Positions 34,176-49,711 of a stretch of 64,000 nucleotides of DNA are shown piece after piece. Position 1 is the first letter of the stretch. The number at the start of each line of letters is the position of its first letter. A program made the translations under genes and the position numbers. Where the stretch lies: assembly GCF_001691555.1 (NCBI RefSeq), contig NZ_MAYN01000004.1, forward strand, positions 1 to 64,000. Direction: 5' to 3'. This stretch comes from Pantoea eucrina. Its GTDB lineage: Bacteria > Pseudomonadota > Gammaproteobacteria > Enterobacterales > Enterobacteriaceae. The notes below the pieces were generated by a model. That model did not search any database. It was not told the DNA's origin and saw only the letters and a list, made by a program, of their open reading frames with translations.

Positions 34176-34257
34176 GACCAGAATCAGACAAAGATAAGAG
34201 GTCCACAGGTTACGCAGGTTGCGCCCCCGGAGCCAGCGCAAATCGGTGTTAATCAGC

Positions 34258-34586
34258 AGACGGGTGCGGTATTTGGCCAGGGCGCCATGAATGGCATCAT
34301 CAAACGGGTGCGGTTATTCAACCAGGGCGCCATGAATGGCGCCCCTACAGAACGTAGGGGGCGCATTAATGCGCCCCTGGCAGCAGACGGATGCGGTATT
34401 CAACCAGGGCGCCATGAATGGCGCCCCTACAGAACTTAGGGGGCGCATTTATGCGCCCCTGGCAGCAGACGGGTGCGGTATTCAACCAGGGCGCCATGAA
34501 TGGCGTCATCAAACGGGTGCGGTTATTTGGCCAGGGCGCCATGAATGGCGCCCCTACAGAACGTAGGGGGCGCATTTATGCGCCCC
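34258..34586. repeat. Palindromic repeat array A (paired hairpins)
   Basis: Full units of 59 bp start at 34322 and 34404, and a nearly full one at 34531; truncated units start at 34277 and 34486. Each full unit holds two hairpins: GGGCGCCAT-GA-ATGGCGCCC and GGGCGCAT-TT-ATGCGCCC, flanked by CCAGG and CCTGG. Starts are spaced 45, 82, 82 and 45 bp. The linker word AAACGGGTGCGGT recurs at 34302 and 34511, with variants at 34258 and 34468. This resembles a REP/BIME element. It lies between the AbrB-family gene and corA and ends 4 bp before the corA stop codon. Confidence 0.9.
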
Positions 34587-48650: not shown

Positions 48651-48847
48651 AAAAAAACACCTGCCAGAAGCAGGTGTAAGATCAGGTCATAAGACAACTG
48701 ATGGTATCCGACTCAACGTAATGTCCGTCTAACTACAGTAGCGCAGAGCGTTACTGCCAGGCTGGACAACGGATACCGTAAGGGGCTCTGCATCATTCCC
48801 AGGTTTATGTCGCATACGCGGACATAAGAGGTGGAATGAGCATCTAC
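48651..48847 (-). ncRNA. glmZ: Small regulatory RNA GlmZ
   Basis: The minus strand from 48847 begins GTAGATGCTCATTCCA, the 5' end of E. coli GlmZ as I recall it, and continues with CAGAGCC and the stem-forming regions. It ends in the terminator ACACCTGC/GCAGGTGT (48677-48657) plus a run of U at 48656-48651. The length of about 197 nt is near E. coli's 207. GlmZ base-pairs with and activates glmS mRNA with Hfq, and RapZ/RNase E inactivates it. The candidate pairing segment is AGTTGTCTTATGACCTG at 48699-48683. Position next to hemY agrees with E. coli. A sigma-54 promoter lies upstream. Confidence 0.9.
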
Positions 48848-48859
48848 GACAGGAAGTAT

Positions 48860-48875
48860 TGCACAAGATGTGCCA
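48860..48875 (-). promoter_or_regulatory. Sigma-54 promoter of glmZ
   Basis: On the minus strand TGGCACATCTTGTGCA has the -24 GG and -12 GC dinucleotides exactly 10 nt apart, the essential sigma-54 spacing. It places +1 at about 48847, the GlmZ 5' end. In enterobacteria glmZ and glmY can be transcribed from sigma-54 promoters activated by GlrR. Confidence 0.8.
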
Positions 48876-48982
48876 GATTGGCATTTTTCTTAAAAAGAGG
48901 TTATCCGTCAGCGTGTTAACCCAGTTCTCAAATGGCACACGAAGAATAAATCCTGCTATAAGACCCCGATTGGCGTTACTTT

Positions 48983-49000
48983 CGTCGCAAAATAACGACA
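48983..49000. promoter_or_regulatory. GlrR-like activator site 1 of glmZ
   Basis: CGTC-N10-GACA matches the GlrR consensus TGTC-N10-GACA with one mismatch. It lies about 110 bp upstream of the sigma-54 promoter, a normal enhancer distance. Confidence 0.65.
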
Positions 49001-49030
49001 GCCAAACCCTTTTTTAGAAAAACTCCATTT

Positions 49031-49043
49031 TATCAAAAGATTA
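49031..49043. promoter_or_regulatory. IHF-like site in glmZ upstream region
   Basis: TATCAAAAGATTA fits the IHF consensus WATCAANNNNTTR without mismatch. It lies between the two GlrR-like sites. IHF bending is known for the glmY/glmZ sigma-54 promoters. Confidence 0.6.
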
Positions 49044-49045
49044 TA

Positions 49046-49063
49046 CGTCGCAAAAAGGTGACA
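49046..49063. promoter_or_regulatory. GlrR-like activator site 2 of glmZ
   Basis: A second CGTC-N10-GACA, 63 bp from the first (six helical turns), so both sites face the same side of the DNA. Together with the IHF-like site this supports a GlrR enhancer. Confidence 0.65.
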
Positions 49064-49124
49064 AAAGCGCACAGGACCCATTCATACAGTCTTTAGTACA
49101 AGATCGTATCGCACGTATTTTTAA

Positions 49125-49565
49125 CCAGGGCGCCATGAATGGCGCCCCTGCGAAACCGTATCGCGTGTTTTCTGCAGGGGTCGCATTCATGCGACCCTGG
49201 CCGCAAACCGTATTGCGTGTTTAAACCACGGCGTCATTACGTACCGCACCCGTTTTAAACCAGGGCGCCATGAATGGCGCCCCTGCGAAACCGTATCGCA
49301 TGTTTTCTGTAGGGGTCGCATTCATGCGACCCTGGCCGCAAACCGTATCGCGTGTTTAAACCACGGCGTCATTATGTATCGCACCCGTTTTAAACCAGGG
49401 CACCATGAATGGCGTCATTACGTACCGCACCCGTTTTAAACCAGGGCGCCATGAATGGCGCCCCTACGAAATCGTATCGCGCGTTTTCTGTAGGGGTCGC
49501 ATTTATGCGACCCTGGCCGCAAACCGTATCGCGTATTTTCTGCAGGGTTCGCATTTATGCGACGC
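49125..49565. repeat. Palindromic repeat array B (paired hairpins)
   Basis: Full 76-bp units start at 49125, 49260 and 49441; a truncated unit starts at 49395, and a right-half remnant ends at 49565. Each unit joins GGGCGCCAT-GA-ATGGCGCCC to GGGTCGCAT-TC-ATGCGACCC by a longer middle segment. Relative to array A the second arm carries a G:C to T:A change on both sides, so the stem is kept. ACCGCACCCGTTT (49243, 49424) is the inverted form of the array A linker word. Array B lies between the glmZ enhancer region and the tRNA operon terminator, where E. coli has aslA/aslB. Confidence 0.9.
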
Positions 49566-49634: not shown

Positions 49635-49711
49635 TGGTCGGCGAGAGAGGATTCGAACCTCCGACCCACTGGTCCCAAACCAGTTGCGCTACCAAGCTGC
49701 GCTACTCGCCG
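49635..49711 (-). tRNA. proM: tRNA-Pro (UGG)
   Basis: A 77-nt cloverleaf read on the minus strand, with encoded CCA at 49637-49635. The anticodon loop contains TGG in CTGGTTTGGGACCAG, and the T-loop GGTTCGAATCC is intact. It is the last of four tRNAs in the argX-hisR-leuT-proM order. Confidence 0.97.

Follow-up and report, generated by a model that had tools for sequence, protein, structure and literature searches.

The repeats at positions 49105 to 49565 of the window, the whole 64,000-nucleotide stretch of Pantoea eucrina DNA that was analyzed, form a tandem BIME array of GTAG-type REP elements (array B), and the matched base changes in their stems are probably the result of selection for a folded single-stranded hairpin that is read by a RAYT-type enzyme, combined with tandem copying. 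The assignment follows from the hairpin anatomy: a full hairpin consists of a perfect 9-bp palindrome, one foot of which carries GTAG or GCAG, and successive hairpins alternate in orientation. The plus-oriented hairpins carry TGG at the other foot.

Array B comprises two 135-bp units, one 46-bp truncated unit, one further unit, and one decayed terminal REP. As read in the sequence, the first unit contains REP 1a on the minus strand (49125 to 49151; class GGGCG[N]CAT, GCAG head at 49148 to 49151) and REP 1b on the plus strand (49174 to 49200; class GGG[N]CGCAT with T at N, arms GGGTCGCAT/ATGCGACCC, GCAG head). The second contains REP 2a on the minus strand (49260 to 49286; GGGCGCCAT stem, GCAG head) and REP 2b on the plus strand (49309 to 49335; GTAG, GGGTCGCAT/ATGCGACCC, and TGG). 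The truncated unit (49375 to 49420) fits an 89-bp internal deletion from a 135-bp unit, which appears to have occurred at GGCG microhomologies. It is followed by REP 4a (49441 to 49467, minus; GGGCGCCAT stem, CTAC at 49464 to 49467), REP 4b (49490 to 49516, plus; GTAG, GGGTCGCAT/ATGCGACCC, and TGG), and the decayed terminal REP (49542 to 49564, plus). The array is bordered on one side by the gene for the GlmZ sRNA (48651 to 48847, minus) and on the other by a tRNA-Pro gene (49635 to 49711, minus), the nearest of four tRNAs. About 260 bp separate glmZ from the start of the array, upstream of glmZ (48847 to 49105 of the window); the glmZ promoter region is regulated in E. coli.

A second array of the same REP family, array A, lies at positions 34254 to 34586, with GGGCGCCAT stems in the minus orientation and GGGGCGCAT stems in the plus orientation, between what we take to be a corA-like ORF and an AbrB-family-like ORF. 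The first-pass annotation had described a change of the second arm between the two arrays. The paired substitution is real, but the arm of array A had been misplaced by one base: it reads GGGGCGCAT/ATGCGCCCC (9 bp) and not GGGCGCAT/ATGCGCCC. The stems of the two arrays thus differ by one substituted base pair, G4-C17 in array A and T4-A17 in array B, at unchanged length. All three full copies in array A (34358, 34440, and 34567) have GGGGCGCAT/ATGCGCCCC, and all three in array B (49178, 49313, and 49494) have GGGTCGCAT/ATGCGACCC, so the left-arm change is matched on the right in every full copy, as had been claimed. However, the copies of an array resemble tandem duplicates and are therefore not independent: they count as one event, not three, and tandem copying of a single unit is the best explanation for the uniformity of array B. 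The order full, full, truncated, full does recur in both arrays, but array A starts with an extra truncated unit and array B ends in the decayed REP, and the likeness in layout claimed for them holds only to that extent.

The family is abundant across the genome. The palindrome pattern GGGNNNNATNNATNNNNCCC had 288 matches in the 3.94-Mb genome, compared to none for a backward control pattern and 186 for the exact GTAGGGG form. We read 250 of the 288 palindromes in sequence, from 39 stretches of this genome (the window and L009 to L046). Their 5' head was exactly GTAG in 171 copies and GCAG in 46. The stems are dominated by two classes: in GGG[N]CGCAT, any of the four bases is found at N, and in GGGCG[N]CAT, this base is C, G, or T. 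The alternative forms that the first-pass annotation had separated as subfamilies A and B are really two of several stem types within one REP family. All but 1 of the 42 arrays lie outside program-called ORFs of at least 120 amino acids; 25 are found between convergent program-called ORFs and 14 more between ORFs of the same direction. Neighboring REPs alternate in orientation, as in BIMEs (93 minus-plus and 74 plus-minus neighbors versus 24 plus-plus and 17 minus-minus), and their spacing is regular inside an array and variable across arrays. Like GTAG-type REPs in general, these elements have GTAG 5' of a palindrome that is capable of forming a stem-loop and are extragenic in high copy number. 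In silico, folding energies are −10.9 and −11 kcal/mol for two individual REPs of array B, while for the whole 135-nt unit the lowest-energy DNA structure is a single long hairpin that runs through both REPs rather than a pair of small ones.

Pairing of the two arms was assessed at the positions that the search leaves free. The stem pattern imposes GGG/CCC, T9, and A12, leaving interior pairs 4 to 7 and two loop bases free; the remainder was covered by a search with GTAG and the left arm alone, which returned 182 copies, 161 of them with nine of nine pairs. Because copies within an array look duplicated, independent events were not tallied from covariation across all 250 copies but from the distinct elements at each locus and from the majority stems of arrays. 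Arm changes paired no more often than by chance across the genome, the outcome that the first-pass annotation had set against its own reading, were not seen. Over 125 distinct locus-element combinations, 96.2% of interior stem cells were paired, while 2,000 shuffles of the right arms gave a mean of 59.8% and a maximum of 67.0%; sliding one arm by 1 to 3 bases lowered pairing to 12 to 48%. At stem position 4, the complement was kept in 243 of the 250 copies (C-G in 135, G-C in 74, T-A in 20, and A-T in 14, with 7 mismatches). An interior mismatch was found in 17 of the 250 copies, each seen once in its own locus, and the majority stem of every array-by-orientation group had a fully paired interior (78 of 78, at 40 loci). 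The paired change had been taken to imply either selection for the folded form or a copying mechanism. Both apply, but to different parts: the former to stem pairing across six main stem types at 40 loci, the latter, as tandem copying, to the uniformity of array B.

The loop is strand-specific. When copies are oriented by GTAG, with direction read solely from the feet, T stands at the first loop position in 248 of 250 copies (and in 153 of the 155 with a direction-showing loop), while the second position is nearly free (A, C, or T in 242 of them). A second search pattern gave T at the first loop base in 241 of 245 copies in this genome, 124 of 125 in the sister genome P. eucrina LMG 5346 (taken as G019), 88 of 89 in relative G004, and 39 of 39 in relative G006; the G004 stretch is contiguous, and the G006 stretches were picked where matches were known and are uninformative on density. 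With the flanking T and A, both imposed by the search pattern, the loop reads TTNA. According to the text of a study of REPtrons (PMC8266576), the Marinomonas system requires T, T, and A in its TTTA loop and leaves the third base free. In both perfect-palindrome systems assayed there, a stem mismatch strongly cuts cleavage, and complement swaps have a mostly modest effect. The Marinomonas exception, a change at the fourth stem position that lowered cleavage (PMC8266576), indicates that the stem letters are not wholly free. The natural variation of the Pantoea REPs matches the published assay profile, which we regard as a resemblance only. Matched mutations are expected if the shape of the hairpin, and not its exact letters, matters.

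A candidate enzyme is encoded in the same genome. An ORF of 156 amino acids (G000:C8:805805-806275, corresponding to L033:3206-3676) matches the model NF047646 with an E value of 3.4e−19 and 70.6 bits. The curated cutoff of 80 bits is reached neither by this protein nor in any of 61 genomes of the genus, and for that reason we call the protein RAYT-type and not a member of NF047646. Its HUH motif (H75 and H77) and catalytic tyrosine (Y131) do not vary across nine aligned sequences, E. coli RayT among them, and its sole phmmer match among PDB sequences at an E value of 1 or better was TnpA_REP (4er8, E value of 0.0028). REPs of the array B family are found on both sides of the gene, as they are around its sister copy (L177), which is the layout of a REPtron; these flanking REPs are presumably the biochemically cognate partners of the enzyme. 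Next to the gene they are mainly GCGC-cored in this genome and ACGC-cored in the sister. The RAYT-type gene (dN of 0.094 and dS of 0.458 from the sister copy, a ratio of ∼0.2) is evolving faster than hemY (dN of 0.006, dS of 0.216). Synonymous divergence of the RAYT-type gene is about twice that of hemY (0.46 versus 0.22), and the gene is perhaps a recombined or fast-evolving allele.

An earlier search of this genome with PF01797 (Y1_Tnp) had returned no match. Reading this as the lack of a RAYT was a false negative, as E. coli RayT itself has no PF01797 match and NF047646 finds the gene. PF01797 matches occur in 9 of 60 genomes of the genus, and the six of these proteins that were scanned are of the IS200 type. 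Among the 61 genus genomes, at least 20 REP matches were found in 9 of the 11 with a RAYT-type gene and in 8 of the 50 without (Fisher's exact P = 6e−5, kinship ignored). Four genomes (G047, G035, G018, and G059) contain 144 to 362 REP matches with no RAYT-type gene detected by NF047646, so REPs can persist for some time without the enzyme; orphan REP populations left after loss of the enzyme are possible in these genomes. In G032, the RAYT-type frame has an internal stop (L176), and the genome has 450 REP matches. In relatives, the RAYT-type genes are bordered either by REPs whose stems are, for example, GGTCGCCAT or GGTGCGCAT, or by another palindrome. A second REP-like family, GTAGCGGCGCGATT.ATCGCGC, forms a mostly regular tandem array next to the RAYT-type gene in G023 (L179:104-1315; period of 174, six copies) and also flanks the RAYT-type genes in L182 to L184.

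Comparison with P. eucrina LMG 5346, in which HemY is 99% identical, allowed us to place the T-A variant in time. The neighborhood of array B has 94 to 95% DNA identity between the two genomes, and the sister carries a single REP pair there, likewise with the T-A stem; the variant is thus most likely, on this sequence comparison, older than the split from P. eucrina LMG 5346. At the site of array A the sister has three REPs, and with two at the site of array B, the layout common to the two arrays is not conserved. More broadly, 23 of the 42 arrays of this genome have both flanks on one sister locus, the other 19 being set aside, and 100 of the 117 sister REP matches were used. At these 23 sites, majority stems agreed in 39 of 39 comparable cases, ties being counted as agreement, while copy number was equal at 2, higher in this genome at 14, and higher in the sister at 7. 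This indicates that stem types are old and bound to their sites, whereas copy number turns over fast. The site L022, for example, holds ten REPs in this genome, while its sister counterpart is a single pair made up of the same two stem types. An empty site that would mark a transposition was sought at L022 and at L026, and none was found: the sister L022 holds the REP pair, and the sister assembly breaks inside REP sequence at L026. No transposition event was seen among the sites compared between the two genomes. Sister contigs C2, C4, C17, C25, C35, and C43 end within ∼65 bases of REPs of the array B family; arrays seem to break the draft assembly, so that copy numbers there are lower bounds. 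The array L029 (L138 in the sister) has C-G and T-A stems in both species, with T.G in this genome, C.A in the sister, and G.A in both, a mixture as would be expected if stem changes arise one arm at a time.

Our preferred explanation, selection for the folded hairpin together with tandem copying, can be outlined as follows. The putative RAYT-type enzyme, a TnpA_REP-like relative of HUH/Y1 transposases, would bind the GTAG strand when it is single stranded and folded, reading mainly the GTAG head, the TTNA loop, and the unbroken stem. It would largely tolerate paired changes of letters, so that the change of one stem pair from G-C to T-A, probably by way of a mismatched intermediate, would be acceptable once completed. 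T-A would then have been fixed at the array B site before the split from P. eucrina LMG 5346, after which tandem duplications and deletions at the site would have multiplied the T-A unit into the present array. We infer from the observations above that the enzyme binds these REPs and mobilizes them, that selection acts through it, and that the events took this order.

It is unlikely that the stems are instead kept as RNA hairpins, terminators or protectors of mRNA 3' ends, with selection acting on transcripts. The loop asymmetry tracks the GTAG orientation, with both directions within one array, and no preference for wobble pairs is visible among the mismatches on the GTAG strand, where G.T and A.C are balanced (6 versus 7 in this genome, 5 versus 4 in the sister, and 11 versus 11 in total, a small sample that is unsorted by transcribed strand). 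The text of PMC3733652, which describes G-T pairs as frequent in the stems of GTAG repeats and proposes roles at the RNA level, favors such hairpins, as does the placement of the arrays (25 of 42 between convergent ORFs, 14 more between ORFs of the same direction). An RNA role in addition to enzyme-driven selection is possible, because that convergent placement is also the one stated for REPs in the text of PMC3733652.

We consider it still less probable that a copying mechanism, template switching in the palindrome or quasi-palindrome correction, wrote the second change in the absence of selection. This would account for the agreement of the arms and for the perfect palindromes of most stems, and quasi-palindrome correction is an established mutational process. 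However, mismatched copies exist (19 of 496 cells in this genome and 10 of 356 in the sister), L029/L138 shows mismatches (T.G, C.A, and G.A) alongside the C-G and T-A stems that both species share, and a GTAG-linked T next to a nearly free loop base is left unexplained. Palindrome-correcting copy errors are a possible source of some paired changes. Descent alone, the spread of a few ancestral stem types with no force on pairing, is very improbable. Copies within arrays and at orthologous sites do agree by descent, and independent paired changes are far fewer than 250, but this genome and its sister show six main stem types, two other species, G004 and G006, have T-A at stem position 3 (82 of 89 and 35 of 39 copies, respectively) where this genome has G-C in 236 of 245, no array has a mismatched majority, and unpaired variants occur only once per locus.

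The two hairpins of a unit are usually unlike. Class GGG[N]CGCAT faces class GGGCG[N]CAT in 34 of the 38 arrays with both orientations. Partners of the same class occurred in 3 of 38 arrays (mean of 18.3 and minimum of 7 in 5,000 shuffles), and identical majority stems occurred in 2 of 38 (shuffle mean of 9.5). Counted as pairs, identical stems made up 7 of 100 in this genome (mean of 21.9, the pairs not being independent), 0 of 45 in the sister (9.4), 0 of 14 in G006 (4.1), and 9 of 28 in G004 (10.5). The G004 value is close to its shuffled mean, so the rule is not universal and holds in three of four genomes. We are doubtful that the two hairpins are meant to differ, either as the distinguishable ends of a minimal transposon or because identical partners are lost via cross-pairing; if they were, stem letters would be constrained only to pair with self and not with the neighbor. 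Avoidance of cross-pairing as the reason is weakened by the folding of the whole unit, which is still best as a long hairpin, and by the failure of the rule in G004. According to the text of PMC3733652, heterodimers are common among GTAG repeats with "no obvious explanation," and protection from SbcCD is suggested; the in silico preference of the whole unit for a long hairpin leaves that reason unproven here.

GTAG REPs accompanied by a RAYT-type enzyme are a known kind of system, to which Pantoea is added as a host for which no description was found in the literature searched. The text of Di Nocera et al. (2013, PMC3733652) describes GTAG REP families with a GTAG head, stems mostly of 6 to 13 bp, loops of two or three bases in many families, subfamilies with alternative complementary stem residues, inverted heterodimers, and placement mostly downstream of coding regions. 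The Pantoea REPs and their BIMEs resemble these in head, stem, loop, subfamilies, inverted heterodimers, and placement, and differ from the families in that text, figure consensus sequences aside, by their GGG[N]CGCAT or GGGCG[N]CAT stem and TTNA loop. GTAG-3 families are confined to enterobacterial cluster 1, with Erwinia in cluster 2 (PMC3733652, text). Also close in kind are the group 3 REPtrons of Stenotrophomonas maltophilia (Sm) and Marinomonas (Mb) as described in the text of PMC8266576, which likewise have a perfect palindrome beside GTAG. The Mb loop (T, T, any, A) equals the Pantoea loop, whereas Sm requires G instead; stems are 9 bp in Pantoea, where the system is known here from sequence, compared to 8 bp in Sm and 5 bp in Mb. 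The Pantoea enzyme, like those of group 3, is extended at its N terminus and lacks a long C-terminal tail when compared with E. coli RayT, the one protein to which it was aligned on this point. E. coli RayT (group 2) shares the HUH enzyme, GTAG, and inverted REP pairs, but it is 25% identical to the Pantoea protein, and the palindromes of E. coli REPs are imperfect and contain a bulge (PMC8266576, text). Elements of the IS200/IS605 type (TnpA, often with TnpB) belong to the same nuclease superfamily and have subterminal hairpins; the six IS200-type proteins of relatives match a family model other than that of the RAYT-type protein, and no REPs of the GGGNNNNATNNATNNNNCCC pattern were found around such genes in the loci checked (L127 to L134). 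A search for work on Pantoea REPs, RAYTs, or REPINs found none that describes this REP family, judged by title or start of abstract, and the main texts of PMC3733652, PMC12306157, PMC6006769, PMC2817692, and PMC3686654 do not contain the word "Pantoea"; REP primers have been used for typing of P. ananatis (PMC5817063).

The counts of unlike partners bear on a puzzle raised in the text of PMC3733652, the preference of GTAG repeats for unlike partners in dimers. This genome and its near relative amount to a natural mutagenesis series of a perfect-palindrome REP, comprising several types of paired stem, a small number of copies with mismatches, a loop in which one base is fixed and another is nearly free, and a RAYT-type gene beside REPs of this family. 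Such a series makes it testable which features of a REP the RAYT-type enzyme reads.
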